A DNA stretch of 64,000 bases from a bacterium (GTDB lineage: Bacteria > Electryoneota > RPQS01). The notes below the pieces were generated by a model. The model made no database searches and was not told the origin of the DNA. It saw only the letters and a program-made list of their open reading frames with translations. Made by a program: the position numbers and the translations under genes. The stretch lies in assembly GCA_023382385.1 (NCBI GenBank), contig JAHDVH010000002.1:324219-388218 (forward strand), given 5' to 3'. Below, in pieces: positions 1-35,472 of this stretch; the first letter of the stretch is position 1; the number at the start of each line of letters is the position of its first letter.

Positions 1-359
1 CAGTTGTGCACGCCGTGACTGCCGGAGAGCGGAAACATCGCACCGTTCGGTGCATCGTTGATGTTTGGAGCACCCGTGAAGATGAAGTTTCCGCCGCCGC
101 GCTCGGGAGAGGGGTGCATGAGATTGTCGGCCCAAACAGCACCGTTGCCCGCAGCGTGACAACTCAGACACATGTCGGAGGGAGAGTTAGCTCTCAGTAA
201 ATAGTTGTTCTCGTACGTGGGCATGACGGGGAAACCGTCCGCGAGCGTGTGCATGGCATGACAGACTGAGCAGGAACCGACGCCGCCGGAATGCACCGCC
301 TGCGCTTGCGCGCTTGACGAAATGAGCGTCGCGAGAAGTAGAGATTTGAATATATTCAT
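1..359 (-). CDS. OmcS-like multihaem c-type cytochrome (3' end cut by window)
   Basis: The reading frame opens at the ATG read from 359 downward and runs off the window edge, so only about 119 residues are visible. It begins with a short signal peptide ending in AQA, followed by VHSGG and two CxxCH haem sites, CSVCH and CLSCH. Numbering from the predicted mature end puts the first haem site at residues 9-13 and an extra histidine at 16 (CHAMH). This is the spacing of the complete OmcS-like protein at 14659-15726, which also shares the CLSCHA..GAVW and PERG.GNF stretches. The gene starts 11 nt after the response regulator stop and is probably in the same transcript. Family knowledge: OmcS polymerises into extracellular haem filaments. 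Whether this copy does so cannot be judged from a fragment. Confidence 0.85.
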   Translation of the reverse strand, partial: MNIFKSLLLATLISSSAQAQAVHSGGVGSCSVCHAMHTLADGFPVMPTYENNYLLRANSPSDMCLSCHAAGNGAVWADNLMHPSPERGGGNFIFTGAPNINDAPNGAMFPLSGSHGVHN

Positions 360-4518: not shown

Positions 4519-5800
4519 GGTTCAGTTTTTCGAGAATTTCTTCAACGGCCTGACGGTCCTGACCTGCGAAAGCGACGGCAATGGCGCGGGCGAGCGTAAG
4601 ATCACTGCCATCGGCTGCTGCGCGGCGCATGTTGGCGACAATCAGACTCGTCACCTTTTTCATCATAGAGCGGGAGAATTTATCGACCTCTTCAAGGTCT
4701 TCTGCGCGAAAGTGATGTGCCTGATGCTCAACTTCAGAAGCACGAATACTTTCGAGCGCAATCTGCAGCTGCTGAATGCTCGGCGCGATGCGATTCTGAC
4801 GATACCACTCAGAGAACTCGGCGACTTCTTTGTCTACGATGTCTTCAGCGCGGACGGCCTCTTTTTCGCGAGCCTTGATGTTCGTGGCGACAAGCTCCTG
4901 GAAGTCGTCCACGGTGTAGAGATAGACTTCGTCGTGCTGCGCGAAATCCGGATCGACGTCGCGGGGCACGGCAAGGTCGAGGAACAACAGCGGGCGTTTA
5001 CGTGAACGCAAGGAGCTTCCAGCAGTATCCAGCGAAATCACCGGAGCTTGAGAGGAAGTGGCACTCACAACTATATCCGCCCATGCCAAATCGTCGGCGG
5101 AAGGTGGAAACGAAGTGGCTTGGCCACCGATGCTATCGGCGAATTGCAGTGCGTTCTCGGCGGTCCGATTACTGACACGCCAATTGCGCGCACCGACATC
5201 GGCGAGATATTTCGCCGCGAGCCGGGAGGTTTCGCCGGCACCAACGAGCAGAATGTTCTTCTCATCAAGCTTGCGGAAGAGTCTCTGCGCGAGTTCGATG
5301 GCCGCATAGGCGACGGAGACCGCACCCTGCGAGATCGCGGTGCGAGTGCGGACTTTCTTGCCGCAGAAAATGGCATGAGTAAAAAGCTTGTTCAAGATGC
5401 CGCTCGTGCCGGCGAGTTCAAGAGCGGCAGCGTATGCCGTTTTTACTTGAGCAAGGATTTGAATCTCGCCGAGCATCTGGGAATCGAGACCGGAAGCGAC
5501 GCGAAAGAGGTGACGCACGGCGGCGGTATCCCGATGCACGTATGCAACATTGGCCTCGGCAAGCTCCAAGCCGCAGATATCCGCATAGAGCGCGCGTAAC
5601 TCAGACTCTTCAAAATGGTAGGTCGGAGACAGATACAATTCGGCGCGATTACAGGTGGACAGGATAACGGCGCCTTCAATGTTCGGATGCCGCACCAGTT
5701 GCTGAATCAAGGCAGGCAGCGCGTCGGGTGAAACGGCGGCGCGTTCGCGGAGACCAAGCGAAGCCGAGTGATGATTGAGACCGATCATCTCAAGTTTCAT
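4502..5800 (-). CDS. hemA: Glutamyl-tRNA reductase
   Basis: A 432-residue NADPH-dependent enzyme that reduces glutamyl-tRNA to glutamate-1-semialdehyde, committing glutamate to haem. The N-terminal catalytic domain has GLNHHSA and the nucleophile C50 in LSTCNRAE. A Rossmann domain follows ([18 protein letters not shown]), and a C-terminal helical dimerisation region ends the protein. The start overlaps the hemX stop in an ATGA arrangement. Having hemA and hemL rather than an ALA synthase shows the C5 pathway is used. Confidence 0.97.
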
Positions 5801-6615
5801 GACTGGCCCCGGAAGAAAATTTGGGTGACGGAGCCTGCGAGCAGGAAGAACATCAAGGCGGTCAGTGCGACTGTCAGCTTGGCCTGTCTCTGGTCACCCA
5901 GCCAGTTTTTTCGTTCTGAAATCGCGAGAATTGTCGCCACGAACCAAAGGGCGAACATCTCATGCAGGTGGTTGAAGAAGCTGGGCGTGCCGGCACGCTG
6001 GATGAACATAAAGACGGTGGATGAAGCGAAACTGATGGTGATGAGCAGCCAGCCGTTGTAAACCGCGAGCGCGCGCAATCTGTGCATATCTTCCATCGAG
6101 GGAAGAGCCGTGAATAGCCGTCCGAATTTGCGCTGGACAAGCACTCTCCGCAGGAGAATCGCACCGGCGCTGTAAACGCCGCTGCCGAAGAGCATTGCGA
6201 CTCCGGCGGTGGAGAGAACGATATGGACGGCGGACCAGATCGAGTGAAGTTCTCGCGGACCTTCCGTGTGCCGCAGTCCGCCCGCCACACCGGTCAGCAG
6301 CAGGACGGTGACAATCACGATGGGCAAAACCGTGAGCATGCGTTGTGAGATACGACGTTCAACGAGCAATTGATCCATCCAGACCAGAAACGCGAGGAAG
6401 ACGCTGATCTGTCCTGCCGTAAGAATCGGAAGTTGGCGCTGGTCGATACTAAGGAGCGTCAGCCACAACGCATACAGAGCCGCGGCTATCCAGCCCACGC
6501 GGACGGCGATTTTTTCGAGGTGTTCGTCGGGACGCTGGTAAAGCATCATCCAGAGCGAGAAAAGGCCGCCAAACACCAGGAGCATCAATCCGGGGAAAAG
6601 TGCGTAGATGAACAT
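5797..6615 (-). CDS. hemX: HemX/CcsA-family cytochrome c assembly membrane protein
   Basis: About 272 residues and eight predicted transmembrane helices. I start it at MFIYALFPG (6615), preceded by GGATGG, rather than at an upstream ATG that would run deep into hemY. Histidines that could handle haem occur in IWSAVHIVLS and FFNHLHEMFALW. It belongs to the CcsA/CcmC haem-handling superfamily. Its place directly before hemA matches HemX in Bacillus hemAX operons, where HemX affects HemA levels. A role in haem delivery to c-type cytochromes is also plausible given the load encoded nearby, but no CcsB/ResB partner is in the window. Confidence 0.82.
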   Translation of the reverse strand: MFIYALFPGLMLLVFGGLFSLWMMLYQRPDEHLEKIAVRVGWIAAALYALWLTLLSIDQRQLPILTAGQISVFLAFLVWMDQLLVERRISQRMLTVLPIVIVTVLLLTGVAGGLRHTEGPRELHSIWSAVHIVLSTAGVAMLFGSGVYSAGAILLRRVLVQRKFGRLFTALPSMEDMHRLRALAVYNGWLLITISFASSTVFMFIQRAGTPSFFNHLHEMFALWFVATILAISERKNWLGDQRQAKLTVALTALMFFLLAGSVTQIFFRGQS

Positions 6616-6616
6616 A

Positions 6617-8035
6617 TCAGGCCATCCTCCACTGCGCGAGCAGCGTGCGCGCGACGCGGAAAGCGTCTTTTGCACAACCATTGACCGACACGCCTCGATA
6701 GCCTGCTCCCGTCAGGATAAATCCCGGAAGTTGTCTTTCGAGAAGCTCCAGTTCTCCGATACGGCTTAGATGACCTTGCGTATACTGGGCAATGCCCTTA
6801 GGGTGACGGAAAATCCGACGGAAGCAAGGCGCGCTCTTCACGTTGTACAAACGGCGGTGCTCGTCGGCGGCGATTTGCTCAACTTCGTGATCTTTCAGGT
6901 CCACTATCTGGGGATCATGCGCTCCGCCGATCATGGTGCGAAGCAGATGGAATCCGTGCGGAGCCTGATTGGGGAAGATGGCATCGCACCAGAGCGATCC
7001 CAGTGCGCGGTAGTCCTCACCGCGCGGGATTAAGACTCCGAAACCATCCAGAGGATGACCGACATCAGCGATGGGATGCGCGTGGGCGACCACATCGATT
7101 GGAGCGTAGGGAATTTCCCGTAGCGCTGAGGCGGCGTTTGAGGACACAGCATTGAGAATCTCGGCTGCGGCGTATGCGGGACATGCGAGGACGACGGCGT
7201 CCGCCGTAAGGGTTCTGCCTTTTGCGTGAACCTCAAAGACTTCACCACGCGGCCGCAAGGACTGGACGGGCGAGTTCGTAATGATGTCAGCGGCAAGCTG
7301 CTGTGCGAGAGTCTCGGTAAGTTCACCCATGCCGTTACGAAACGTCGTGAGCGTCGCGGCCGCTCCGGCAGGTCCGCCCGTCAATTCGCCGGACTGTTTG
7401 GCAGCACGCTTCTTCGCGATCATCGCGCGCATCAGACCGCCGTACTCGGTTTCCATCTCAACCATTTTAGGAAAGACGGCGCGCAACGAAAGTTCTTTGG
7501 CGTTGCCCGCGAAGATTCCGGAAACCATCGGGTCGATCATGTATTGCGCGAAGTCTTCTCCAAGGCGACGCCTGGCGAAGTCATAGACGGATTCGTCATA
7601 ACCATTGCGCTTGGCCGGAATAACCGGTTCGAGCGCCATGCGCAGTTTTGCTCCGACAGGCAGGATGTCCGACTGCAGGAACGAGCGCGGAGAGAGCGGC
7701 ACTTCGCGCATCTTGCCATGATGATAGATGAAGCGCTTGCTCGCGTGTCCGGAGGCACGCACCAGCCGCTGCTCGAGGCCGAGAAGTTTGACAAGCTCAA
7801 GCGTCGCAGGTTCATTGTCGAGGAAACCGTTCGGTCCCCATTCGCAGAGAAAGCCTTCGGCGAGTTCCGTGCGCGTCGCGCCACCAGTGAAAGCTGCGGC
7901 TTCCAGAATAGTCACCTGCGGGTCTGCTCCGCGTTCGCGCGCGAGGGTGCGAATCAGAAAGGCGCTGGCCAGTCCGGCGACACCTCCGCCGATTACCACG
8001 ACGCTTGGCCGAAGGGGATTAGCAGGCAACGGCAT
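6617..8035 (-). CDS. hemY: Protoporphyrinogen oxidase (FAD-dependent, HemY type)
   Basis: A 472-residue flavoprotein converting protoporphyrinogen IX to protoporphyrin IX (called hemG in some schemes). The start at 8035 (MPLPANPLRPS) places the FAD dinucleotide motif VVIGGGVAGLASAF at about residue 12. A longer reading would extend more than 100 nt into hemH. The C-terminal FAD signature GAGYRGVSVNGC is present. The gene overlaps hemH by 17 nt. Enzymes of this class normally use oxygen, which contrasts with the oxygen-independent HemN in the same operon. Confidence 0.95.
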   Translation of the reverse strand: MPLPANPLRPSVVVIGGGVAGLASAFLIRTLARERGADPQVTILEAAAFTGGATRTELAEGFLCEWGPNGFLDNEPATLELVKLLGLEQRLVRASGHASKRFIYHHGKMREVPLSPRSFLQSDILPVGAKLRMALEPVIPAKRNGYDESVYDFARRRLGEDFAQYMIDPMVSGIFAGNAKELSLRAVFPKMVEMETEYGGLMRAMIAKKRAAKQSGELTGGPAGAAATLTTFRNGMGELTETLAQQLAADIITNSPVQSLRPRGEVFEVHAKGRTLTADAVVLACPAYAAAEILNAVSSNAASALREIPYAPIDVVAHAHPIADVGHPLDGFGVLIPRGEDYRALGSLWCDAIFPNQAPHGFHLLRTMIGGAHDPQIVDLKDHEVEQIAADEHRRLYNVKSAPCFRRIFRHPKGIAQYTQGHLSRIGELELLERQLPGFILTGAGYRGVSVNGCAKDAFRVARTLLAQWRMA

Positions 8036-8975
8036 GACAGGACTCCCGCAACAAATTGAGTAACGCAGCGGAGAAGCGCGTGTCGTCATTGAAGACGCGC
8101 ACGCGAACATACTTCTTGACACCCTTCCGCTCAACAATTTCCTTAGCAACGGAATCGAGATCGTAGAGTGTTTCGAGACAGTCGGAAACGAAGCTCAGGG
8201 GCATCATGACGATGGGATCGTCACATTGGGTCCATTCAGAGAGCACATCTTCCATATATGGTTTCGTCCATTCGACGGGTCCGACTTTGCTTTGATAGGC
8301 AACTATCCAGCGCGTTCCGTGCGGCAAGCTCCGCGCGAGTTTTTCCGCTGTAGCACAGACGCGGTCAGGGTAGTCGTCACCTCGGTTTACATAGATTTTC
8401 GGAATGCCGTGAGCAACAAACATGACGCGCGCGCGCGGACCTGCTTCCGACAGAGCATCGCGAAGGTAGTCCCACCAGATCGCCAGCATGCTCTCCTCCT
8501 GTCCCCAGTCTTCAATGTAGTCGAACGTCAGGTGACAGGACTTAGCTGCTCGTCGGACTTCTTTCATCACCGAACCGGTCATCGTGTGCGTGTAGTGGGG
8601 GAAAAGCGGAATGACGTTGAGATGACGGATGCCTTTTCCGGCGAGCGCGGCAATCGCTTCAGGGATCGTCGGCGAAATATAGCGGAATGCCCACATCACC
8701 TCGGTTTGTTCGCCGCGCAGGGAGAGTTCGTTCAAGATGTTTTGTCGAAGAGCTTCCGTCCAATCGAAAAGCGGACTGTAACCGCCAATGCCTTCATATC
8801 GCTCGGCGACTTCTGATGCGCGGCTCCGTGCAATGAGCGACGCAAGCGGCTTGCGGATAATCGCCGGAAGGTCAATGATCGCGGGATCGCTGAAGATTTC
8901 ACGCAAATAGGGTTCTACGTCGATGCGGCGGGCGGGGCCGCCCATATTTACCAGTAGGATTGCTTCACTCATCAT
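8019..8975 (-). CDS. hemH: Ferrochelatase
   Basis: A 318-residue enzyme inserting ferrous iron into protoporphyrin IX to give protohaem. The catalytic histidine is H189 in VMFVAHGIP and the conserved acid is E268 in SFVSDCLETLYDLD. The N-terminal LLVNMGGP motif is typical. Two methionines open the frame (8975 and 8972) and either may be used. It lies 6 nt after the hemN stop and overlaps hemY by 17 nt. Confidence 0.96.
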   Translation of the reverse strand: MMSEAILLVNMGGPARRIDVEPYLREIFSDPAIIDLPAIIRKPLASLIARSRASEVAERYEGIGGYSPLFDWTEALRQNILNELSLRGEQTEVMWAFRYISPTIPEAIAALAGKGIRHLNVIPLFPHYTHTMTGSVMKEVRRAAKSCHLTFDYIEDWGQEESMLAIWWDYLRDALSEAGPRARVMFVAHGIPKIYVNRGDDYPDRVCATAEKLARSLPHGTRWIVAYQSKVGPVEWTKPYMEDVLSEWTQCDDPIVMMPLSFVSDCLETLYDLDSVAKEIVERKGVKKYVRVRVFNDDTRFSAALLNLLRESCHAVAC

Positions 8976-8981
8976 CTATTC

Positions 8982-10376
8982 CTACAAGGTTTTCGAGTAG
9001 ACGACGTTCGCCTGATCGGCGAGGTAGCGATCAAAGGGCATGGCAAGGTTCCTTACGAAGAGCTGCCCAAGCGGCGTGACGCGAAATCCGCCGTTGTCGC
9101 GTTTGACCAGCCCGCTGCTCTCGAAGGAGGAGATGTGATCGATTGCCGAGTTCATTCTTGCCACGAATTCGTCACCAAGCTCGTGCATATGCTTGGGCAA
9201 GTTGATCTCAAGATTGCACATCAAGTGGTTGATAATCTGTTTGGTTGTCCGGTCATCGGCACTCAGTTCGTGTCCGCGCTCGAGGGGCAGGCGGCCCGCT
9301 TCAACCGCGTCAGCGTAGGCTTCCGGTGAGGGGATATTCTGAGTGAAGAGATTGCGAAACTCGCTGATTCCGGAGCAGCCGAGTCCGAGCAGTTCAAGGC
9401 CGCGCGTGGTGGTATAGCCCATGAAGTTGCGCCAGAGACGGCCTTGATTCTGAGCGAGGGTCAGATCATCGTCGGGCAGCGCGAAGTGATCCATGCCGAT
9501 GCCCACATAGCCGGAGTCACCGAGCACGCGATGGGCATCGAAGATCATGCCGAGGCGCTCACGCGAGGAGGGCAGATCATTCTCGTCGATGGCGCGCTGA
9601 TGTTTCATCCGCGACGGCAGGTGAGCGTAACCGAAGCAAGCAAGTCGGTCAGGCCGCAATCCGGCCACGGCTTGCAGGGTTTCCAACCATGTTGTGCGCG
9701 TTTGACGGGGCAGCCCGTAAATCAGATCAATGTTGATGCTCGTGAAGCCGTACTCGCGGGCGCGGGTGATGAATCCGGTGATCTCATGTAAATTGTACTC
9801 ACGCCGCACGGCTGCCTGCACTTCAGGATTCAGATCCTGCAATCCGGCGGAAATGCGGCGGAAGCCGCGTGCGGCAAGCAGCTCGAGATGTTCGTCGGTG
9901 GTGACACGTGGATCCACTTCAACGGAACGATCCGCGACGGGTGCACCGGGGATTTTCTCAATCAACAGATCAAGCATGCCCGCCAAGCGATTCAGCGGAA
10001 CATATGTGGGAGTTCCGCCGCCCAAGTGCAATTGACTGTGGCGAACAGGGCGCACGAACTTGCTTGTGACCAGCCGGATTTCACTTTCGAGCGCATCCAT
10101 GTATCTATTCATGCGCGACTCGTCATGGGTGATGTGCGCGTTGCAGCCGCAATAGAGGCAGCGTTGACGGCAGAACGGCAGGTGCACGTAGACGGCGATA
10201 CTCTCTTGCTCTTGTCCCAGCCTGTGTAAAGCATCTACAAACGCTTCTTCGCGGACCGGAGCATGCCATACGGGAACAGTCGGATAAGAGGTATATCGCG
10301 GCCCGCGGCCATCCAGCTCGTTGACCAGCGCGAAGGCTCGCTCTTCAGAGATGTCGTGCCAGCTTAAGCGGTTCAT
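8982..10376 (-). CDS. hemN: Oxygen-independent coproporphyrinogen III oxidase
   Basis: A 464-residue radical-SAM enzyme that decarboxylates coproporphyrinogen III without oxygen. The cluster motif is C69-x3-C73-x2-C76, followed by a further cysteine C78 (CRQRCLYCGC). True HemN proteins carry this fourth cysteine, whereas HemW-type haem chaperones usually lack it. The HemN C-terminal domain is present. It is separated by 2 nt from hemE upstream and by 5 nt from hemH downstream. Confidence 0.96.
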   Translation of the reverse strand: MNRLSWHDISEERAFALVNELDGRGPRYTSYPTVPVWHAPVREEAFVDALHRLGQEQESIAVYVHLPFCRQRCLYCGCNAHITHDESRMNRYMDALESEIRLVTSKFVRPVRHSQLHLGGGTPTYVPLNRLAGMLDLLIEKIPGAPVADRSVEVDPRVTTDEHLELLAARGFRRISAGLQDLNPEVQAAVRREYNLHEITGFITRAREYGFTSINIDLIYGLPRQTRTTWLETLQAVAGLRPDRLACFGYAHLPSRMKHQRAIDENDLPSSRERLGMIFDAHRVLGDSGYVGIGMDHFALPDDDLTLAQNQGRLWRNFMGYTTTRGLELLGLGCSGISEFRNLFTQNIPSPEAYADAVEAGRLPLERGHELSADDRTTKQIINHLMCNLEINLPKHMHELGDEFVARMNSAIDHISSFESSGLVKRDNGGFRVTPLGQLFVRNLAMPFDRYLADQANVVYSKTL

Positions 10377-10378
10377 GT

Positions 10379-11440
10379 CTATTCTCCGCGAATTTCATCG
10401 AGCAGAATGTCGACGTGCTCGATAGGCGTTTCGGGCAGAATCCCGTGGCCAAGATTGAAGATGTGGCCGCGCTGCGGCGCCTCATTCAGAATCTGACGAG
10501 TGCGCGCGCGGATCGTCCGCTCATCGGTCAGCAGCAGGATGGGATCAAGGTTTCCTTGCAGTGCGACACGCTGACCGAAGCGGCGGCCTGCCTGCTCAAA
10601 ACTCATGCGCCAATCCAGGCCGTAAACAGTTGCTCCAACCTTCGCCGCAGACTCAAGGTGCATACCGTTCAGAACGAAGTAGGTGAGCGGGACGTCGAGC
10701 GATCTCAATTCGGAGAAAATCCGCTGCAAGTGCGGCAGACTGAACTCTGCGTATTCGTCGTCCGTGAGAATCCCCCCCCACGTGTCGAACAGCTGGAGCG
10801 CATCGGCACCGGCCTCGACTTGCGCGCGCAGATAAGAGATGGTTAACGTGCTGAGTTTCTCCATGAGCTCGGAGAACGCGTGCGAGTCCGCATACATCAT
10901 CCGTTTCGTGCGCCTGAAGGGATCGGGCTTGCCGCCTTCAATCAGATAACAGCCCACGGTGAAGGGTGAACCTGCAAAGCCGATCAGGGCTTTGTCATCG
11001 GGAAGCTCGCGACGAATCAATTTGACGGCATCGAGAACTTGGCCGAGTTCTTCCCGCGGGTCGAAGTCCCGCAGTTTGGAAACGTCGTTGTGCGCACGCA
11101 CCGGCCGCTCAATCACAGGGCCGTGTCCACTGTCGAAGTGCAATCCTGCTCCGAGGGGAATTGCAAGCAACAGGATGTCGCTGAAGAGGATGGCGGCGTC
11201 GAAATCGAAGCGGCGAATCGGTTGCAGGGTAACCTCGCAAGCCAGTTCAGGTGTGTAGCAGACGGAGATGAAATCGTGCCGTTCTCGTACGGCGCGATAC
11301 TCGGGAAGATAACGTCCCGCCTGCCGCATGAGCCATACGGGAGGAATGGCGAGCGCTTCACCGCGTGCGGCACGCACATACTTGGAGGTTGCGGTGCGCT
11401 GTTCAGATACAGGTTTCATTGCGGAAATGACTTCAGACAT
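10379..11440 (-). CDS. hemE: Uroporphyrinogen decarboxylase
   Basis: About 353 residues. It converts uroporphyrinogen III to coproporphyrinogen III. I place the start at MSEVISAMKPVSEQ (11440), which overlaps the hemD stop by 8 nt. An upstream ATG at 11533 would add about 31 residues unlike the family. The conserved PPVWLMRQAGRYLPEYR signature near the N-terminus and the GHILPETP region near the C-terminus are both present. Confidence 0.95.
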   Translation of the reverse strand: MSEVISAMKPVSEQRTATSKYVRAARGEALAIPPVWLMRQAGRYLPEYRAVRERHDFISVCYTPELACEVTLQPIRRFDFDAAILFSDILLLAIPLGAGLHFDSGHGPVIERPVRAHNDVSKLRDFDPREELGQVLDAVKLIRRELPDDKALIGFAGSPFTVGCYLIEGGKPDPFRRTKRMMYADSHAFSELMEKLSTLTISYLRAQVEAGADALQLFDTWGGILTDDEYAEFSLPHLQRIFSELRSLDVPLTYFVLNGMHLESAAKVGATVYGLDWRMSFEQAGRRFGQRVALQGNLDPILLLTDERTIRARTRQILNEAPQRGHIFNLGHGILPETPIEHVDILLDEIRGE

Positions 11441-12170
11441 GATCGGGCTCGTGTTGCATGAGACTCGCGCGAACGGCTTTCGTGATGGATAGTGCGTCGG
11501 GGTGAGTGGCTGTAGAGATTCGTGAGTGTCCAAGTGCGCTTAGTGCACGTTGAGTCGTCGGGCCGATGGCAATGGCCGCGAAGGGCCACGGCAACGGCAG
11601 AGCGCGGTGAAGTGCATGCACGGCACTCGGTGCAAAAAAGACTGCTGCGTCCACCGGAAGATGCGATTGCAGTTGCCGGGAAAGTTCGCGTGGCTCGCGT
11701 GCAATCGTGCGATAGACCGGCAGCGCGTGTATTAATAGACCATTGCTGCGGCAGATGTCCGCAAAATCCGATCTGTGCTGGTCTGGACACGGATAGAGCA
11801 GTTGCGTCCCGAGCGGGAGCGTGCGGCTCAACTCTTCCGCGAGGTGCGCTCCGGTTCCCACCGAGGAGATGACTTCAGGCTCTTGAGCGAAGTACACTCG
11901 CACGGCGTTGGCGGTTGACTCACCGACGGCTGCAATCATGACGTCGAAGGGTAGAACCTGTTTTGTGCTCCGGAGTGCTTCAAAGAGTCCGCGCACACCG
12001 TTCGCGCTGGTGAAGGCAACCCACGGCGTGGCGATTTCCAGCTTTTCGGGAGTGATATACTCTGTTGTGGTGGCCGGAAGAGCCGAGCAAGCGAAGCCTT
12101 CCGCGTGCAGAAGGTCGCAGAGTTCGCTGCAGAGTTCCGGTTGACGGATTAACAACACCCGCTGGAGCAT
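11433..12170 (-). CDS. hemD: Uroporphyrinogen-III synthase
   Basis: A 245-residue cyclase acting on hydroxymethylbilane. The family is poorly conserved. The call rests on length, the WVAFTSANGVRGLFEAL and AAVGESTANAVR segments, AIGPTTQRAL near the C-terminus, and the position between hemC and hemE. The start overlaps hemC by 22 nt. Confidence 0.92.
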   Translation of the reverse strand: MLQRVLLIRQPELCSELCDLLHAEGFACSALPATTTEYITPEKLEIATPWVAFTSANGVRGLFEALRSTKQVLPFDVMIAAVGESTANAVRVYFAQEPEVISSVGTGAHLAEELSRTLPLGTQLLYPCPDQHRSDFADICRSNGLLIHALPVYRTIAREPRELSRQLQSHLPVDAAVFFAPSAVHALHRALPLPWPFAAIAIGPTTQRALSALGHSRISTATHPDALSITKAVRASLMQHEPDHV

Positions 12171-13060
12171 GCCTGACTCTGGGAAAGTTCGGTGAAGAGT
12201 TCCTGCGGCAACGCATCAGGCAGATTGCCGCGCACGGTGGCGCGCACTGGCCCGGACAGCGCGTCAAACCAGAAACCTTCCATGATCCACACGTCGCCGT
12301 TACGGGATGCGTATGCGCCTAACGGCAAGCCGCATCCGCCGCCAAACAGGGCCTGCAATTGCCGCTCGATGCGGGTTGCAGTGAAAGACTCAGCGTTGTG
12401 CACGGCCTCGCGCACTATGGAAAGACGCGAATCATCCGCGCGCATTTGAATAGCGAGTGCTCCTTGACCGGGGGCCGGAACAAACAGCGACGGAGCGAGA
12501 CGTTCGACGCGAAACTCGGAGAGATCGAGCGCGAGCCTGCGAACGCCGGCACTCGCCAGCATGATAGCATCGTATTCGCCATCACGCAGTTTTCTTAAAC
12601 GTGTCGGGACGTTGCCGCGCAGATCTTTGGTTTCCAGATCCGGACGCAACGCCAACAATTGGGTTTCGCGGCGGACGGCACTGGTTCCGACAAGTGCTTC
12701 CGGTTTCAGGAAGAGATCGTCTTCATCAGAGGTCGCAGCATCCGGTCGCATAATGAGCAGATCGGCGGCATCTTCGCGCGCAGAAACGGCGGCCAACGTC
12801 AGCCCTTCGGGGGCTCTGGATGGCATATCCTTATAGGAATGCACTGCGACATCTATTCTCCCGTCCAGCAGGGCTTCTTCGAGTTCTTTCGTGAAGTAGC
12901 CGCTGCCTTCCAGTTCGCGTAGAGGGCGGTCTGTGACTCGGTCACCCTGCGTGGTGATAATGTTGACCTCGATGGTCATATTTAACTTCTGTTCGAGGAA
13001 ATTTTTCACCCAGTTCGTCTGTGTGCGGGCGAGGTCGCTGCCCCGAGTTCCGATAATCAT
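12149..13060 (-). CDS. hemC: Hydroxymethylbilane synthase (porphobilinogen deaminase)
   Basis: A 303-residue enzyme polymerising four porphobilinogens. The dipyrromethane cofactor cysteine is C243 in FGGGCGLPLGAY. The N-terminal IIGTRGSDLARTQ and the LRGNVPTRLRKL arginine segment that binds the growing chain are clear. It is the first gene of the haem operon, so the operon promoter should lie in the 13061-13575 gap. I could not pick a convincing one. Confidence 0.97.
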   Translation of the reverse strand: MIIGTRGSDLARTQTNWVKNFLEQKLNMTIEVNIITTQGDRVTDRPLRELEGSGYFTKELEEALLDGRIDVAVHSYKDMPSRAPEGLTLAAVSAREDAADLLIMRPDAATSDEDDLFLKPEALVGTSAVRRETQLLALRPDLETKDLRGNVPTRLRKLRDGEYDAIMLASAGVRRLALDLSEFRVERLAPSLFVPAPGQGALAIQMRADDSRLSIVREAVHNAESFTATRIERQLQALFGGGCGLPLGAYASRNGDVWIMEGFWFDALSGPVRATVRGNLPDALPQELFTELSQSQACSSGCC

Positions 13061-13575: not shown

Positions 13576-14556
13576 ATGCGAACAAGAGTAATGTATACCC
13601 TCAAGTCCAGATGCAGTTTCAATTGCCGAACGGTGAAGACTCTGCTGTGGGTCGCGATGATGGTATTCGCTCAGTTGGCATGGTCGCAGACTTACGACAT
13701 TACGCAGAGTCTTCGTTACCCGGCGGGTGACAACGGCAGTCCTCAGCCGACGAATTTGTATGTGGATCGTTACACGGGCGACATATTCCTCGCGGACGCT
13801 TCCACTTCGCGCATTGTCATTTATGATTCGCAGCGCCGCTTTAATTTCGAATTCTCGACGCGCAGTCACGTCGTATCACCGCGGAAAGTCGCGGTTGACG
13901 CGCAGGGCAGGATCTACGTCTTAGGCGATACGCGGACGCACACGCTGGCGGTGTTCGATTACAACGGCGAGTTTCTGAATCATCTTGATCTGACTGCCGA
14001 AGATGGTTCTCAACTGGAGCCTGCGGACTTCGTCTTAGACAATGAGAACAAGCTGTATCTCCTGTCCCTCGAGCCGCTGCGAATGAACACGTATACGTCT
14101 TCGGGTTCAGCGATTGAGCAGTTTGAGATACTGGGTGACGACGAAGCAACGCGGATGTCGCCGGTGATTGGAAACTTCCTGATTGACCGTGACCGGCTGC
14201 TTCTTCCGTTGCCGATAGCCGGAACGGTGGCGGTGATGGACCTGGCAGGCAAGCTGATTCGCTTCGTAGGCTATAGCGGCGGCGGACCCGGTGAGTTAAG
14301 TTTTCCGGCAGCGTGCTGTCCAACCGATGACGGCGGATATGTGGTTTTGGATAAGCACCGTCACCTGCTGCAGTTCATCGGGAGCGACGGACTTTACAAG
14401 TATGAGATCGGCGGAGCCGGATTGGTGGAGGGCTGGTTCTTTCACCCGACCGCATTGGCAAAGTGTCATGACGGGACGTTGCTGGTAGGTCAGATACATG
14501 CCAATCGCGTGCAGGCTGTTACGCCGCAAGTGACTCCGATTGTGACAGGCTCGTAA
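13576..14556 (+). CDS. Secreted NHL-type six-bladed beta-propeller protein
   Basis: A 326-residue exported protein with a basic N-terminus, a hydrophobic core (TLLWVAMMVFAQLAW) and likely cleavage after SQ. The rest is about six blades of the pattern VDxxGxIYVxDxxxxxIxVFD, for example LYVDRYTGDIFLADAST and VAVDAQGRIYVLGD. There is no enzyme signature. An ATG five codons later (13591) is an equally possible start. It lies just upstream of the OmcS-like cytochrome, in the same direction. NHL propellers are recalled beside filament-cytochrome genes in Geobacter, so a role in filament assembly or anchoring is the working inference. Confidence 0.85.
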   Translation: MRTRVMYTLKSRCSFNCRTVKTLLWVAMMVFAQLAWSQTYDITQSLRYPAGDNGSPQPTNLYVDRYTGDIFLADASTSRIVIYDSQRRFNFEFSTRSHVVSPRKVAVDAQGRIYVLGDTRTHTLAVFDYNGEFLNHLDLTAEDGSQLEPADFVLDNENKLYLLSLEPLRMNTYTSSGSAIEQFEILGDDEATRMSPVIGNFLIDRDRLLLPLPIAGTVAVMDLAGKLIRFVGYSGGGPGELSFPAACCPTDDGGYVVLDKHRHLLQFIGSDGLYKYEIGGAGLVEGWFFHPTALAKCHDGTLLVGQIHANRVQAVTPQVTPIVTGS

Positions 14557-14658: not shown

Positions 14659-15726
14659 ATGAGACGGTCGGTTCTTCTTTTCCTGGTAACGGCCGCGCTG
14701 GTTTGCTTGCCGTTATCGAACGCGCTGGCGTTTCATGATGAAGGTGTGGCGTATTGCGCGGGCTGCCACACGATGCACAATACGAACGGCAATAATGGGC
14801 TGGTTGACCCGTCAGGTCAAGGCTACCCGTATTTGCTGAAGTATGCGAACGCGACGGATCTATGTTTGTCCTGCCATGCCACGAGCCGTGGCGCGGTATG
14901 GATGGCCGATCCGATGGCTCCGGGTCCGGAACGCGGCCCGGGAAACTTTGCCTTCCTACTGGAAGACAATATCAATGACGGACGTCTTGGCGGCGCGAAC
15001 CCGATTCCGGGTTGGCGTGCGGGTCACACCGTGATTTCACCGAGCCGCGGCACGGTGGCTGATGCCTTGAATCCGATTTCCCCGGGAGGCAACTACCCCG
15101 CCTCGCAACTGGGCTGCACGAGCTGCCACAATCCGCACGGCAACCAGAACTACCGTCTTCTGTACGGTGTCGGCGAGCGCGCGGAACCGGGTAACTTCAG
15201 CTACACTCAGCCAGCACCGATCGCGGAAGGTCTGCCTTTCTCCGGCGCAGGGTCGAGCGAAACGAACAGCAATCACATCGCATACAAGAGCGGTATGAGC
15301 GGCTGGTGCTCGAACTGCCATGGCAACTTCCATCAGAACGATACGCAGTATCGTCACCCGAGCGGCGTTGGCATGAGTTCAGCGATTCAGAACATCTACA
15401 ACACTTACAACGGCACGATGGATCAGAATGGCGGCAGCCCTGCAACGGCTTATCTCGCGCAGGTCGCGTTTGAAGATCCTGACATGTTGATCACGTCGAC
15501 TGCAGGCCCGGACGCTAACAGCAAGGTGAGCTGCATTTCGTGCCACCGTGCACACGCATCCAGCGCTCAGAATTCAGGTCGTTGGGACTTCAACGTTACT
15601 TTCTTCCAGCAGGATGGTGTTGAGTCCGGTTCTTATGTGATGCCGCAGACCTACAACAGCCCGAACCAGCGTTCGATGTGTAACAAGTGCCACAACAAGG
15701 ATCGTAACAACCACAACCCTTTTTAG
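14659..15726 (+). CDS. OmcS-like hexahaem c-type cytochrome, probable extracellular filament subunit
   Basis: A 355-residue precursor with a 24-residue signal peptide cleaved before FHDEG. Six CxxCH sites are present: CAGCH, CLSCH, CTSCH, CSNCH, CISCH and CNKCH. The order and surroundings match Geobacter OmcS as I recall it: FH..GVA.C.GCHTMHN, YPA.QL.C.SCH.PHG, GMS.WC.NCH, RHP.G, C.SCHRAHAS, and a C-terminal QR..CNKCH..D. Candidate distal histidines occur in TMH16, AGHTV, NPHG, NFHQ, RHPSG and RAHAS. In OmcS the residue equal to H16 ligates a haem in the next subunit, and here it falls at exactly mature residue 16. The mature chain (331) is shorter than OmcS, with losses in loops. Filament formation is inferred, not shown. 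Confidence 0.93.
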   Translation: MRRSVLLFLVTAALVCLPLSNALAFHDEGVAYCAGCHTMHNTNGNNGLVDPSGQGYPYLLKYANATDLCLSCHATSRGAVWMADPMAPGPERGPGNFAFLLEDNINDGRLGGANPIPGWRAGHTVISPSRGTVADALNPISPGGNYPASQLGCTSCHNPHGNQNYRLLYGVGERAEPGNFSYTQPAPIAEGLPFSGAGSSETNSNHIAYKSGMSGWCSNCHGNFHQNDTQYRHPSGVGMSSAIQNIYNTYNGTMDQNGGSPATAYLAQVAFEDPDMLITSTAGPDANSKVSCISCHRAHASSAQNSGRWDFNVTFFQQDGVESGSYVMPQTYNSPNQRSMCNKCHNKDRNNHNPF

Positions 15727-15796: not shown

Positions 15797-15849
15797 ACCG
15801 TGGTTCCCCGGTACCGCTTTCTCCCCGGCATGGGCCGGGGAACCACGGT
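15797..15849. repeat. 15-bp perfect inverted repeat with 23-nt loop
   Basis: ACCGTGGTTCCCCGG at 15797-15811 is exactly complementary to CCGGGGAACCACGGT at 15835-15849. The loop holds a second short CCCCGG motif that can pair with the right arm. No T-run follows, so this is not a standard terminator. It may protect the 3' end of the cytochrome mRNA or be a small mobile repeat. Confidence 0.8.
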
Positions 15850-15932: not shown

Positions 15933-15979
15933 GAAGGACCGGTTGCGGACCCTTATCCATGGCAACGGTCCTTCTTTTT
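15933..15979 (+). terminator. Rho-independent terminator after the OmcS-like gene
   Basis: GAAGGACC (15933-15940) pairs with GGTCCTTC (15967-15974), extended by GTTGC/GCAAC across one bulged base, and is followed by TTTTTG. It lies about 200 nt after the stop codon, behind the long inverted repeat. Confidence 0.75.
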
Positions 15980-18153: not shown

Positions 18154-18723
18154 ATGCACATTAGACTACAGATTGCGATTATCATTCTCTCTACGGTTCT
18201 TTCGGGGTGTGCGGCGAAACGCGCGACGGTTTTTTTGCATCCCGAGTATGACTTCGGTTTTGTAGAGCGAATCGCAGTCGCGAATTTCGAGAATTTGTCC
18301 ACCGAGCAGGGTGTCTCCGCCTATGCGACGCGCTTGTTCATCACCGAAGTGCTCGCCGCGCAGGCGTTTGACGTGGTCGAGCCGGGTGAAACCGCACGGG
18401 TTCTGCGCGACATCGGTCAGACGCGGGCGGGCGAGCTTGACTTAGCCGGTCTTCGGCGCGTGGCGGACTCTTTGGGAGTTCAGGCAATAGTCTTCGGTTC
18501 AGTGGGTGAAGCCACCCAATTGCCGGGCCGTTCGTCTTCCACGCATGTTGTGAGCATCGATGCGCGCATGGTGGATTGTCAGACCGGAACCACAGTTTGG
18601 TCGGCGGCCGTTTCCGTGGGGGGTCCGGGTCCGGTTGCTCGCACGTTCGGAGCAGGCGACAATTCGCGCGGCGATGCGGTTCACAAAGCCGTTCGCAAGC
18701 TTGTCAAGCTGCTGTTGAGCTGA
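18154..18723 (+). CDS. LpoB/CsgG-like outer-membrane lipoprotein
   Basis: A 189-residue lipoprotein starting at MHIRLQ (18154), with lipobox LSGC giving a lipidated cysteine near residue 18. Longer upstream readings overlap the barrel gene. The mature part resembles the nucleotide-binding-like fold shared by LpoB, CsgG and GNA1162: an IAVANFEN strand, a helix, FDVVEPGE, a LRDIGQTRAGELD loop, then LGVQAIVFGSV. It lacks the long hairpins that form the CsgG pore, so a periplasmic scaffold is likelier than a channel. Its stop overlaps the next start (TGATG). Confidence 0.72.
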   Translation: MHIRLQIAIIILSTVLSGCAAKRATVFLHPEYDFGFVERIAVANFENLSTEQGVSAYATRLFITEVLAAQAFDVVEPGETARVLRDIGQTRAGELDLAGLRRVADSLGVQAIVFGSVGEATQLPGRSSSTHVVSIDARMVDCQTGTTVWSAAVSVGGPGPVARTFGAGDNSRGDAVHKAVRKLVKLLLS

Positions 18724-19799
18724 TGCTCCGTCACCTGCTCATAGCGGCACATGTATTTGTGCTTCTTTGTCATAGCGTAAACGGACAGACAGTAGAACGT
18801 ATTGCGCTGCTTCCGTTCACAGAGGAAGGTGTCGAACAGTCTGCACGTTCGATCGTCAATCAGCACGCGCGGCGGCTGCTGATCCGACAGGGATTCTCGG
18901 TTGCGGTGGAAGACTCCGTGTTGTCGGCGTTACGAGACTTGCGCATCAGGAACACCGCAGCTCCAACGCCGCACCAAGTTCGAGAGTTGTGCGCCTTGTT
19001 GGACGTCACGTCGATTATCACCGGAGCAATCCACAGATTCTCGGCGGAGAGCACGTTCACGGAGGCAGCACTTTGTGCGCGGATGATACGGGGCAAAGAC
19101 ACGCAGGTGCTCTGGAGCAATTGCGCGGTCAGTTCAGGAGGCGGAAACGATGCGCTATTGTCAACACCTGCACACGGGCAGGAGCGACTGGCAAAAGGGA
19201 CCGTCAAGAAAGTCTTTCGTTCCTTAAAAGCAAGCTTGAAGCAATCAGACCGAAGAGTTTCTGGGATGACATTCCGGACGCGCAAGGGTCGGCTCGAGAT
19301 TCCCTGCCAACGCGTGGCCATCATTCCGCCGGTGGACGAATCAGAAGCCCAATACGCAAGCTTGCTGATCAGCGACTTGCTTGCCGCGGAAATGCGCCGA
19401 CGCGGATTCACGGTGCTGGACGCCGGAAGTGTTCGCAACCTGCAGCTTCAGACTGAGGATTTGCGATACGGACAGGCCGTAGATGTTGTAAGCCGCGCAC
19501 TTGCGGACAGTCTGGATGCGGACCTCGTGATTACGGGAGCGGTCAGCGGGTTCACCTCTTCCCGACTTGCAGGCCTGGGGAGCGTTCCTGAAGTTTCGCT
19601 GGAGCTGCGGATGATTGAGCCGAAGCGGAACCTTGTATTATGGGCGACGAATCTGCGGCGCACGGGACAAGACAAGCAACGATTTTTCAAGCTCGGCGCC
19701 GTGCACAGTCCGGCACGCCTTGCACAGGATATGATTCACGATTTCGTAAACGACCTGCATATCACGCGGTCACACGTCACATTGACCAACCAACCATAG
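18723..19799 (+). CDS. Exported protein with two LpoB/CsgG-like domains
   Basis: 358 residues starting inside the previous gene's stop codon. A signal peptide ends near VNG. Two domains resemble each other and the preceding lipoprotein: one begins VERIALLPFTEEG and runs to about residue 170, the other begins CQRVAIIPPVDESE and runs to the end. Each has the order strand, helix, GF.V, then SIITGAI or LVITGAV. No lipobox is seen. It is probably a duplicated, fused relative of the lipoprotein upstream and its periplasmic partner. Function unknown. Confidence 0.7.
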   Translation: MLRHLLIAAHVFVLLCHSVNGQTVERIALLPFTEEGVEQSARSIVNQHARRLLIRQGFSVAVEDSVLSALRDLRIRNTAAPTPHQVRELCALLDVTSIITGAIHRFSAESTFTEAALCARMIRGKDTQVLWSNCAVSSGGGNDALLSTPAHGQERLAKGTVKKVFRSLKASLKQSDRRVSGMTFRTRKGRLEIPCQRVAIIPPVDESEAQYASLLISDLLAAEMRRRGFTVLDAGSVRNLQLQTEDLRYGQAVDVVSRALADSLDADLVITGAVSGFTSSRLAGLGSVPEVSLELRMIEPKRNLVLWATNLRRTGQDKQRFFKLGAVHSPARLAQDMIHDFVNDLHITRSHVTLTNQP

Positions 19800-19800
19800 T

Positions 19801-21432
19801 ATGAACCGATTACTTATCTTGCCTTCGCTCGTAATTGTGACGCTGTTCGGAACCGCGTTCGCACAGGCACCCGCAGTCCTCGCCACCGTAAACGGCGAAG
19901 AAATCACAACGGACATGCTGGCTCGGGAGTTGGGCCGGATCCACGCTGCACAGACAACCGAAGTGCAGCGCACGGACTTCGACTTTGAACGGCTGGTACA
20001 GTCCATGATCAATAATAAATTGATCGTACAGGACGCCTACGCACTGGGGTTGGATCAGGAAAAGACGATCACGGAATCCGTTCGCTGGTTTCGCGAGATG
20101 ATTGCCTATCAGCAGTTAATCGCCGACATTCAGCCGAAGAATCTTGAGATTCCGGAAAGTGAGTTGCGTGCGGGATTTGAGCGTTACTTCCGCAGAGCGA
20201 TGCTGAGACTGATATGCGTGGCGGACTCGGGTTTTTGCGCCAGCCTTGCCGACAGTATTCGCAACGGCGTCTCGATGGCTTCGCTGGCTTCGCGCTACGC
20301 GATTGACAAGTATCGTGACCTCGGCGGGGATGCCGGAGTATATCCATTATATAGTCTTCCCGAAACACTGTTTGAGAAGCTTGAAGGCGCTCGCACGGGT
20401 GAACTGCTCGGCCCCCTTTATTTGTGGAGGACATGGGCCTTGGTGCGACCTGACGCATTCTTGCCGCCGGACAAGGCAGTGTATGACAGCGTGAAATCGG
20501 TTATCTACGAGCAGCTCTGGTCGGACAAGGCGACGGCGATTCGTAACGAGTTCATCGAACGCGAAGCGGAATCCATTTTGGTCTGGGCGGACTCCGCAGC
20601 GGTGGATTCAATTCCGGAACGCATCGACTTGAATATGCCGGCCAGCAAGCGGGTGGTGCTGCGCGTCGGGAAGTCGCGTGAACTGCTTGAAGACGAACTT
20701 CAGAACAAGTACATTCACCGCTTTGTGTCGCGCAAGGATCGCGATGCGCGGGAAGTGTTGTGGGAGGTTTTCAATGAGCAGCGCCAAATCATGTTGCTCA
20801 AGGAAATTGCACATAAGCAGAAATACGTGGATGACCCGCGATTAGACGAGGAAGCCGAAGCTTTCAAAGACTCGATGATGATCGTCCGCTACTTGGAGTC
20901 CGTCATTGCTCCGACTATCAAGATCAGCGACGCCGAGATCAAAGCTTATTACGATGCGAATCCCGACAAGTTCCACAAGCCGGGCCGCGTGCGGGTGGCA
21001 ATCATCACTCGCGAGACACAGGAAGAAGCGCAGATGGACTATGAGCGGATTCTGGCCGGCGCAGATTTCACCTGGATAGCCAAGCAGTATTCGATTGACG
21101 AATACAAAGATCGCGGCGGCTTGCGGGAGTGGGCGGATCTTGAGAAATTTCCGAGCATGATCGCCGAGCAGATCGAGATGCTTCCCATCGGCGGGTGTCT
21201 CCCTCCGCTACTGGGAGATGAGGGCTTTGTGGTGTTGAAACTGGTTGAGCGCGAGCCTGGTCCGCGCCGTTCGCTCGACGAAGTGCGGTCGAGTATTCGC
21301 GGACATATCGAGCAAAAGAAGCAACTCGAAGCAATTGAAGCGACCATCCGCGACTTGCGGAACGATTCGGAGATCGTGATCAACCAACAAGCCATTCAGA
21401 GCTTGCAGGCCGACACTCCCCGGAACAACTGA
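19801..21432 (+). CDS. Periplasmic SurA/PrsA-type peptidyl-prolyl isomerase
   Basis: A 543-residue exported chaperone with signal peptide cleavage after AFAQ. The N-terminal half has the SurA-type opening ATVNGEEITTDML and long helices. Two parvulin-like regions follow. The first is around residues 130-220 and degenerate (SMASLASRYAIDKYRDLGGDAG). The second is around 390-490 and clearer (DFTWIAKQYSIDEYKDRGG and LPPLLGDEGFVVLKLVERE). Such proteins fold outer-membrane and exported proteins. It follows the preceding gene by 1 nt and precedes the 26-haem cytochrome by 22 nt, so the cytochromes or the barrel are likely clients. Confidence 0.88.
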   Translation: MNRLLILPSLVIVTLFGTAFAQAPAVLATVNGEEITTDMLARELGRIHAAQTTEVQRTDFDFERLVQSMINNKLIVQDAYALGLDQEKTITESVRWFREMIAYQQLIADIQPKNLEIPESELRAGFERYFRRAMLRLICVADSGFCASLADSIRNGVSMASLASRYAIDKYRDLGGDAGVYPLYSLPETLFEKLEGARTGELLGPLYLWRTWALVRPDAFLPPDKAVYDSVKSVIYEQLWSDKATAIRNEFIEREAESILVWADSAAVDSIPERIDLNMPASKRVVLRVGKSRELLEDELQNKYIHRFVSRKDRDAREVLWEVFNEQRQIMLLKEIAHKQKYVDDPRLDEEAEAFKDSMMIVRYLESVIAPTIKISDAEIKAYYDANPDKFHKPGRVRVAIITRETQEEAQMDYERILAGADFTWIAKQYSIDEYKDRGGLREWADLEKFPSMIAEQIEMLPIGGCLPPLLGDEGFVVLKLVEREPGPRRSLDEVRSSIRGHIEQKKQLEAIEATIRDLRNDSEIVINQQAIQSLQADTPRNN

Positions 21433-21454: not shown

Positions 21455-23446
21455 ATGGAGACTTTTCTCCTGAAATTTCGATCCTTTTTGCAGTGGCTGT
21501 CAATCAATCTGCTTGCCGGACTGCTCATTGCAGCTTTGGCATTTCCGCCGCACATCGAGGCTCAGGTCAAGCGCGGATCACGCTTTAGCAAGCAGCAGAA
21601 TTGTCTGGAGTGCCATGACGCGAAGGAGTATCGGGGCAAGTTTGCGCACGAGCCGGCTGAAAAAGGTGACTGTGCCGCTTGTCATTTACCGCACGGAAAA
21701 GTCGGCGCGTTGCGCTTGAAGGATACCGGCGCGGATCTCTGCCTGAGCTGTCATGCCGCGGACTCGTTACGATTGTCGGCGAAGTTTGTGCACGAGCCAT
21801 CGCGCGCGGGGCATTGCACCGAGTGTCACGATCCGCATCGCGGCACGGAAAAGAATCTGCTGAAGGCGTCATTGCCTTCCCTGTGTTATCAATGTCATGA
21901 TGCGGCACAGTTTGAAGCAAAGCACAAACACAAGCCCCTCCAGCAAGGCTGCGGCGCCTGCCATGATATGCACGGCAGCGATCACGCAGCACTGCTGAAT
22001 CAGGAGCAAACCCAGCTTTGCGCGAGCTGTCACGGTGGGCAGGACGCCACGTTTGCGAAGCAGCATGCGGGCTATCCCGTCGCGGGCAAGGACTGCTCAG
22101 CGTGTCACCTTCCGCACTCCTCGGAGACCAAAGCGCTGCTGCCCAAGACGGTACACGCGGTCATGGAGGGGCCGTCGTGCTCGGATTGTCACGTCGCGCC
22201 GACAGAGTCAAAGCCATTTGCGCTGAATGAGGACGAGCGAGCGATCTGCGCGACCTGCCACGATCCGCTTGAGAAACACGGTGCGAACACGCATGCGCCC
22301 GTGCAGGACGGAAATTGCACGGAGTGCCACAATCCGCACGTCACGACACAACCCGCACTGTTGAAAGCGAACGACTTGCAGGTGTGCGGCGAGTGCCACT
22401 CAACCGAGCTTGAGAAGACCAGACTTGCGCACGCGCACTCCGCCGCCAAAGACGCCTGTACGAACTGCCACGAAGGACACGGAAACTCCGAACAGAAACT
22501 CTTGAAGGACAAGAGTAACGGACAGTGCTTAAGTTGTCACGACAATATCTCGGTTGAGTTGAGCCAGCCGTTCACACATTCAGCAACAAAGCTTGGTAAG
22601 TGCTGGAGCTGTCACGAACCTCACGGCACAAACCGCGCGGGGCTGCTGAAGGAGTCGGAGGACAAACTGTGCCTGAATTGTCATGACGAATTGCGCAAGT
22701 CTTTTGCGCAGGTGGATGTTCACGATCCGTTCCGCAAGGGCGATTGCGCATCCTGTCACACCGTGCACGGCGGCACAAACAGCAAGCTGCTGAAAGCCAC
22801 CGACAATTCGCTGTGCGCGACGTGTCATGCCACGGAAATGAAGATTGAGGAGACTTCGGTCGCTCATTCGCCGTTCGTGGACGGCGCGTGTCTCGATTGC
22901 CACCAACCGCATGCGTCCAATCACGACGGCCTGTTGAACATGTCGGTGACGACGACGTGCGGCGAGTGCCATTCGGACATCACGGATAAGATCAAAACGG
23001 CCAAGTCGGTGCATCAGCCGGTGGCGGACGGACAGTGCACAGCCTGCCACAATCCGCATCAAAGCTCGAACAAGCATTTGCTGCTTGCGCGAGCGGCTGA
23101 CTTGTGCATCACATGCCATGCGGACATCGAGGGTGCGCGCACGGCGAAGTTCTCACACCCGCCCGCGGCATCCGGCGAATGCTTAAACTGCCATAGTGCT
23201 CACACCAGTTCGCACAAATCGCTGCTGACCTCCGCAATGCCGGGATTGTGTTTGGATTGTCACGACGTGACGACCGCTGATTTTCGCACAGCCCATTTAG
23301 GGCAGACCGGCGAAAAGATGAATTGTGCACTCTGTCACGATTCACACGGTTCCGACCGGGAACGGATGCTGATGCGCAACCAGCACGCGCCTTTCGAGTC
23401 CGGTGACTGCGCAACGTGCCATGTTGCGGAAGGAGACAAACGATGA
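21455..23446 (+). CDS. 26-haem c-type cytochrome
   Basis: A 663-residue exported protein (signal peptide to about residue 36, ending IEAQ) with 26 CxxCH sites by my count. They alternate between CxxCHxPH-type sites, such as CTECHDPH and CASCHTVH, and plain sites such as CLSCHAAD. This is the doubled-CxxCH pattern of the paired-motif cytochrome families, repeating about every 45-50 residues over the whole chain. There is no other domain and no membrane anchor beyond the signal. Its stop overlaps the next start (ATGA), so the two cytochromes are made together. It is likely a periplasmic or surface electron wire. The partner is unknown. Confidence 0.93.
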   Translation: METFLLKFRSFLQWLSINLLAGLLIAALAFPPHIEAQVKRGSRFSKQQNCLECHDAKEYRGKFAHEPAEKGDCAACHLPHGKVGALRLKDTGADLCLSCHAADSLRLSAKFVHEPSRAGHCTECHDPHRGTEKNLLKASLPSLCYQCHDAAQFEAKHKHKPLQQGCGACHDMHGSDHAALLNQEQTQLCASCHGGQDATFAKQHAGYPVAGKDCSACHLPHSSETKALLPKTVHAVMEGPSCSDCHVAPTESKPFALNEDERAICATCHDPLEKHGANTHAPVQDGNCTECHNPHVTTQPALLKANDLQVCGECHSTELEKTRLAHAHSAAKDACTNCHEGHGNSEQKLLKDKSNGQCLSCHDNISVELSQPFTHSATKLGKCWSCHEPHGTNRAGLLKESEDKLCLNCHDELRKSFAQVDVHDPFRKGDCASCHTVHGGTNSKLLKATDNSLCATCHATEMKIEETSVAHSPFVDGACLDCHQPHASNHDGLLNMSVTTTCGECHSDITDKIKTAKSVHQPVADGQCTACHNPHQSSNKHLLLARAADLCITCHADIEGARTAKFSHPPAASGECLNCHSAHTSSHKSLLTSAMPGLCLDCHDVTTADFRTAHLGQTGEKMNCALCHDSHGSDRERMLMRNQHAPFESGDCATCHVAEGDKR

Positions 23447-24663: not shown

Positions 24664-24684
24664 GCGACTAAGTTAGCCAAGGAA

Positions 24685-24710
24685 GACCCGGGCGAAAGTC
24701 CGGGTTTTTC
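24685..24710 (+). terminator. Rho-independent terminator of cluster A
   Basis: ACCCGG (24686-24691) pairs with CCGGGT (24700-24705) around a GCGAAAGT loop, followed by a T-run. It begins about 20 nt after the 16-haem stop. Confidence 0.8.
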
Positions 24711-24927
24711 TGTTTGTGGTGCTGCAATCGGTATGAATTGATAAGTTTGCGCTGTGCTGCATTTCCGGACAAATTAAAATACCGCTCACTCCAGTATTCA
24801 GTGTTTTTGGAGGTGCGAGCCTCTTTTCGCAGGCCGTAGTATGAGACTCTGACGTAAGTGCCTTGAAACACAAGGGCAGGAGATGCGACCGATTTGGAGT
24901 TTTTTTTCCGTTTTTTTGTGAAGAACC

Positions 24928-25432: not shown

Positions 25433-25918
25433 ATGAAGAAGCTTCTTTTGATTGTCACAGCTCTTTCCCTCCCGGTCTTCGTCCTCGCAGCCGATGTGGA
25501 AGTGAAGGGCGAACGCTCTGAAGTTATCAAGACGGTGCACTCGACACCGGCTCCGGTCAGCGTGGAGTCTATTCTCGAAGAAGTTGCTCTCGAAGCAGTA
25601 CAGACTGTGCTGCAGCCCGAGTTCCAGCAGTTGGAAGATCGGTTTCAGAAGCAGATTTCCGAAGTGCGCGCGCAGATCGCACTTGCAACGGATGAGCAGG
25701 CTGAACTGCTTGAGCAGCAGATCATCGCTCTGAAGGCGGAGCAGGAGGAAGCGCGGCTAGTTGCGGTGCTGAATTATGTTCGCGCTCAGGGCAACCACGA
25801 GGCTGAGGCCCGTGTGCTTGCGGCCATCGAGAGTCGCAATAACCAGACACCGGTGCAGAGAGTGACGGTAGAACGCGACCCGCTGACGGGTGACGTCCGC
25901 GAAGGAGGTGCGAAGTGA
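25433..25918 (+). CDS. Small secreted coiled-coil protein of unknown function
   Basis: 161 residues with a signal peptide ending VLAAD. Residues about 50-115 are strongly helical and charged (LEDRFQKQISEVRAQIALA, then QQIIALKAEQEEARL) and probably form a coiled coil. An AGGAGGTGA ribosome site lies within the end of the previous gene. The stop overlaps the protease start by 4 nt, so the two are translationally coupled. No family is recognised. Confidence 0.7.
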   Translation: MKKLLLIVTALSLPVFVLAADVEVKGERSEVIKTVHSTPAPVSVESILEEVALEAVQTVLQPEFQQLEDRFQKQISEVRAQIALATDEQAELLEQQIIALKAEQEEARLVAVLNYVRAQGNHEAEARVLAAIESRNNQTPVQRVTVERDPLTGDVREGGAK

Positions 25919-33567: not shown

Positions 33568-33568
33568 A

Positions 33569-34879: not shown

Positions 34880-34881
34880 GC

Positions 34882-35469: not shown

Positions 35470-35472
35470 ATC

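Follow-up and report, generated by a model that had tools for sequence, protein, structure and literature searches.

Does a bacterium of the phylum Electryoneota build a haem filament of the kind known from the OmcS nanowires of Geobacter? The question is raised by a hexahaem cytochrome gene in a window of 64,000 nucleotides, the whole stretch of DNA that was analysed (contig JAHDVH010000002.1, positions 324,219 to 388,218). The first-pass annotation, made from the letters of this DNA, described its product as an OmcS-type filament cytochrome of a lineage other than Geobacter. The open-reading frame is real and its coordinates are exact: translation starts at the ATG at 14659, which is preceded by AAGGAGG, and the stop codon occupies positions 15724–15726. 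The mature protein, which follows a signal ending in ALA and whose N-terminus was placed by alignment with that of OmcS, is FHDEGVAYCAGCHTMHN. Its CxxCH motifs lie at mature residues 9, 45, 129, 193, 268 and 317, as expected of a secreted hexahaem cytochrome. A chance origin of this pattern was rejected: when the residues were shuffled 20,000 times, CxxCH occurred 0.019 times on average and at most twice, compared with the six motifs present. The features of the locus are collected in Table 1.

Table 1. Features of the hexahaem cytochrome locus and of the related gene at the window edge.
Position	Strand	Feature	Basis or remark
1..359	-	Seven-haem stand-alone OmcS-like paralogue, N-terminal part, cut by the window edge	Full gene at L024 13448-14578
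13576..14556	+	NHL-repeat beta-propeller protein	Pfam NHL 4.5e-9; upstream in 5 relatives, absent from L001
14659..15726	+	Hexahaem OmcS-type cytochrome, OscC position, 355 aa, 6 CxxCH	PDB and profile searches, alignment
14659..14730	+	Sec signal peptide with ALA at its end; FHDEGV at the mature N-terminus, as in OmcS	Alignment
14776..14778	+	H16 codon (mature numbering), equivalent of OmcS H16	His in 12/12 sequences
15797..15849	+	Strong hairpin after the hexahaem gene	Other osc clusters share the structure but not the sequence
15933..15974	+	Terminator-like hairpin and T run before the barrel gene	Shared with L025
16034..18130	+	Outer-membrane beta-barrel, OscE position, C-terminal F	AlphaFold2, Foldseek; start may be ATG 16046
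18154..18723	+	Lipoprotein, GNA1162/CsgG/LpoB-like, OscF position	Pfam GNA1162-like 1.9e-6, CsgG 0.003
18723..19799	+	Lipoprotein-like protein, OscG position	Pfam matches all weak
19801..21432	+	SurA/PrsA-type parvulin peptidyl-prolyl isomerase, OscH position	Pfam Rotamase_2 1e-21
21455..23446	+	26-haem cytochrome, OscI position	Haem count; GSU2495 also 26-haem (PMC12977616)
23443..24663	+	16-haem cytochrome, OscJ position	Haem count
24680..24711	+	Terminator-like hairpin at the cluster end, 14 pairs	Such sites number at chance level overall

Among solved structures, OmcS is the sole convincing relative of the hexahaem protein. A phmmer search of all PDB chains returned OmcS with an E-value of 8e-37 and the next match with 0.92, and a profile of 11 homologues returned OmcS with 9e-51, followed by matches of 0.006 or worse to short haem stretches. 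The assignment to the OmcS type is thus upheld, with no comparable second family. Kinship with nitrite reductase was considered and rejected, as the profile search of the PDB gave weak short matches only. OmcE and OmcZ are also polymeric multihaem cytochromes, and OmcE shares a histidine across subunits; neither was found as a sequence relative of the window protein in the PDB search.

The window protein and OmcS (GSU2504; PDB codes 6EF8 and 6NEF; sequence verified against 6EF8) share 37% identity across 315 aligned residues. The six CxxCH motifs and their flanks follow the OmcS order, and the mature N-terminus FH..GVA.C..CHTMHN is common to both, with the first CxxCH at residue 9 and H16 aligned. 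In an alignment of OmcS with the 11 homologues, OmcS histidines 2, 13, 16, 51, 110, 144, 147, 243, 247, 257, 332, 335 and 404 are histidine in all 12 sequences. These 13 positions would suffice for the 12 axial ligands of six haems with one to spare, and candidate distal ligands are thereby present for every haem. The mature chain has 331 residues as opposed to 407, corresponding to 6.5 and 7.8 kDa per haem, and 82 OmcS residues are missing from all 11 homologues, mainly in the loops 149–172, 176–185, 302–312 and 372–392. The order of the haem sites, the N-terminus, the candidate ligands and the shortened loops all stand as they were first described.

We take H16 to be the residue that in OmcS reaches haem 5 of the neighbouring subunit. 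The periodicity of the motifs points in the same direction: CHxxH is present at haems 1, 3 and 5 in the alignment, and if its second histidine serves haem n-2, then H16, which belongs to haem 1, would have to ligate haem 5 of the adjacent subunit. One ligand of haem 5 in the OmcS filament is indeed a histidine from the neighbouring subunit (PMC6584659, PMC7096707). Alternatively, the protein could be a monomeric electron carrier, secreted or periplasmic, in which H16 ligates a haem of its own chain. The one spare histidine leaves 12 intramolecular ligands possible by counting, and a chain shorter by 76 residues may lack interface loops. However, the N-terminal segment bearing H16 matches OmcS residue for residue, and the adjoining genes for a dedicated barrel, lipoproteins and an isomerase are expected for assembly at the surface and not for a soluble carrier, which makes a monomer distinctly improbable. 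An AlphaFold2 model of the hexahaem family (11 sequences) reached a mean pLDDT of only 32, too low for a fold search or for claims on ligand geometry.

The genes around the hexahaem gene form an operon-like run, in the order NHL propeller, hexahaem cytochrome, barrel, two lipoproteins, parvulin isomerase, 26-haem and 16-haem cytochromes. In Geobacter, the block from GSU2501 (oscC) to GSU2493 has been linked to the maturation and secretion of OmcS; it includes the 26-haem GSU2495 (oscI) and oscJ (GSU2494), OscH is a folding factor and OscE, OscF and OscG are secretion factors (PMC12977616, PMC13194489), and GSU2497 is annotated as a lipoprotein (PMC3495685). The window run matches the published order, the gene types and the 26-haem count of this “nanowire secretion” block from GSU2501 to GSU2494. 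The neighbours were matched by their order, gene type and haem count and not by sequence comparison, and the letters E to H are interpolated for the window genes from order and gene type. In both, a hexahaem gene adjoins secretion genes, and a 26-haem cytochrome lies beside another multihaem cytochrome, a lipoprotein and a folding factor. The first-pass annotation had placed the cytochrome outside a recognisable Geobacter setting; this part of it fails, because the neighbours reproduce the osc block.

The two clusters also differ. In Geobacter a YVTN-type propeller, probably OscD, lies beside oscC, while the window cluster has none, and no such propeller was found anywhere in the window genome. 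A YVTN/YncE-type propeller does lie between the hexahaem and barrel genes in two related genomes (G022 and G025), as it does beside oscC. Copies of omcS and omcT are likewise missing from the window cluster, in which no separate omcS-like gene was found.

The AlphaFold2 model of the barrel (pLDDT 82) shows about 28 barrel strands, counted as DSSP elements, and an inserted jelly-roll-like domain. Its Foldseek matches, TonB receptors, MtrB and FimD, are all outer-membrane barrels, and MtrB has the highest TM-score (0.41) among the 50 matches listed. This similarity, together with the large multihaem proteins that adjoin the barrel, would fit an MtrCAB-like porin-cytochrome conduit, in which the barrel encloses the 26- and 16-haem proteins and the hexahaem protein acts as a terminal reductase at the surface. 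The cluster, however, contains two lipoproteins and a parvulin, neither of which is known as a component of Mtr conduits. The hexahaem protein is moreover related to OmcS and not to MtrC or OmcA, and the gene order is that of the osc block (PMC12977616). A conduit of this type is therefore very improbable.

Several other features are found in the vicinity. Haem biosynthesis genes, from hemL, hemB and hemA to hemC (2223–13060, minus strand), stand head to head with the osc cluster, and the same arrangement is seen in G001. A 1395-residue protein of the subtilase family is encoded directly downstream of the cluster (25915–30102, plus strand); Geobacter OmcZ needs a serine protease. A second module resembling electron export (32707–41140, plus strand) encodes a ferric-reductase-like membrane protein, a ferredoxin-flavoprotein, a TPR protein, 20-haem and 31-haem cytochromes and a 558-residue protein without a family, which may be a barrel. 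Type IX-like C-terminal sorting domains occur near the clusters (L024 7566-10259; L025 83-2662; L029 15429-18926), suggesting a host of the FCB group.

The osc hexahaem gene is present in six of the 39 species genomes of the phylum that were searched, the barrel gene in exactly those six, and the gene order is identical in all of them. Beyond the phylum, a search of genome contigs yielded one relative, in an Acidobacteria metagenome-assembled genome (MAG), which carries the same run from the hexahaem gene onward without the NHL gene; no relative was found among the plasmids or viral contigs searched. The order hexahaem, barrel, lipoproteins, isomerase, 26-haem and further multihaem cytochrome is thus common to the window and six other loci, one of which (L001) ends inside the last gene. 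In a tree of the 12 sequences, the window protein groups with that of its genus mate (support 100/100), the deeper forks being open, and OmcS, the sole Geobacter member, forms a long outgroup branch of 2.2–2.7 changes per site. Taken together, this grouping and this branch show that the window protein is not an orthologue of Geobacter OmcS in any recent sense. The phylogeny that had been proposed as a check is answered in part, with OmcS as the only Geobacter sequence; nothing points to a relationship between the window protein and other solved multihaem cytochromes. The phylum is represented by only 39 species genomes, and the Desulfobacterota would be represented by far more, which supports a lineage other than Geobacter.

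A paralogue with seven haems, 48% identical and with the seventh CxxCH at the C-terminus, is found outside the cluster in four genomes of one family (f1). These paralogues form one clade (100/99), nested near the hexahaem proteins of the same family. In G000 and G001 the paralogue adjoins cytochrome c assembly genes of the CcsB type, and the full gene in L024 is flanked by a response regulator and histidine kinase pair and by CcsB/ResB genes.

The existence of this paralogue bears on whether the hexahaem protein is the wire or an accessory to it. In Geobacter only OmcS, and not OscC, OmcT or OmcJ, is known to form a wire (PMC12977616), and homology is consequently no proof of polymerisation. 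The window protein occupies the position of OscC (GSU2501), a predicted periplasmic protein for which no role as a wire is known (PMC13194489). It could accordingly be an OscC-like accessory, held in the periplasm or tethered to the outer membrane, that caps, nucleates or electrically couples the filament of another protein, perhaps here that of the seven-haem paralogue, which exists in the same family of genomes. In three genomes with the osc cluster (G022, G025 and G028), however, the hexahaem protein is the only family member found, and the Acidobacteria MAG has no other as far as its short contig shows. An accessory role would leave these genomes without a filament subunit, and in the three of them the hexahaem protein is the only obvious cargo. 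The paralogue also occurs apart from the osc genes, in G002, where it is the only family member and the osc cluster, with its barrel, is absent, and every histidine relevant to polymerisation is kept in the hexahaem protein. On this evidence an accessory role is unlikely.

We therefore favour, with some confidence, the reading that the hexahaem gene supplies the subunit from which an OmcS/Osc-type cytochrome nanowire is built. An OmcS relative stands beside what appears to be the same set of secretion genes, and the host thus probably builds a nanowire comparable to that of Geobacter. Given the OscC position and the lack of a separate omcS-like gene in the cluster, the OscC-type protein is likely itself the wire, and the locus is best read as an OmcS/Osc nanowire system with one subunit and no OscD-type propeller.

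In such a system, the subunit would be exported by Sec and loaded with haem in the periplasm, where the CcsB/ResB system adjoining the paralogue may serve. The isomerase would help it to fold, and the subunit would then cross the barrel, predicted to be a wide pore of about 28 strands, with the assistance of the lipoproteins. Polymerisation would proceed end to end, because H16 of each subunit is proposed to complete haem 5 of the next, and the 26- and 16-haem proteins may feed electrons into the filament from the periplasm.

The RNA downstream of the subunit gene may contribute to its dosage. Folding of the 130 nucleotides after the hexahaem stop codon gave z-scores of -2.8 to -6.0 in six of the seven osc clusters and of -1.4 in L027. 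The hairpins may keep the subunit in excess over the machinery, a reading of modest weight because 3' hairpins are common. The hairpin after the hexahaem gene is present in a single copy, and its identity as a dispersed repeat was rejected. An Rfam search of the window gave no family, nor any riboswitch close to the cluster.

Homologues of OmcS outside Geobacter have already been published (PMC10954620, PMC12545173, PMC7399161, PMC12203936). DA_402 of Desulfurivibrio alkaliphilus (PMC12545173) and CwcA of Thermincola (PMC12203936) are OmcS-like and were predicted or proposed to stack or polymerise. The seventh motif of DA_402 is near haem 1, whereas that of the paralogues described here is at the C-terminus. 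The machinery is reportedly called widespread in the title of Shen 2025. The window system is thus an extension of a known kind of nanowire and not a new kind.

Whether the OscC-type protein forms an uncharacterised nanowire, or whether OmcS took over the block at a later stage, was left open by a 2026 study of Geobacter genomes (PMC12977616). Genomes with a complete block and one hexahaem protein make this role testable: if the block works in these genomes, its cargo must be the hexahaem protein. With its compact chain, the protein also offers a natural experiment on the loops of OmcS and on their importance for polymerisation, for insulation and for the width of the filament, and the lack of a propeller similarly probes whether a nanowire system can do without OscD. 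Tentatively, and at somewhat less than even chances, the ancestral state outside Geobacter may have been a compact single-subunit osc system without OscD, in which the hexahaem protein in the OscC position was the wire, while in one family of the phylum a duplication produced a second subunit, with seven haems, which moved out of the cluster. If this is true, OmcS of Geobacter would be a later, loop-enlarged copy that was taken over by an older machinery.
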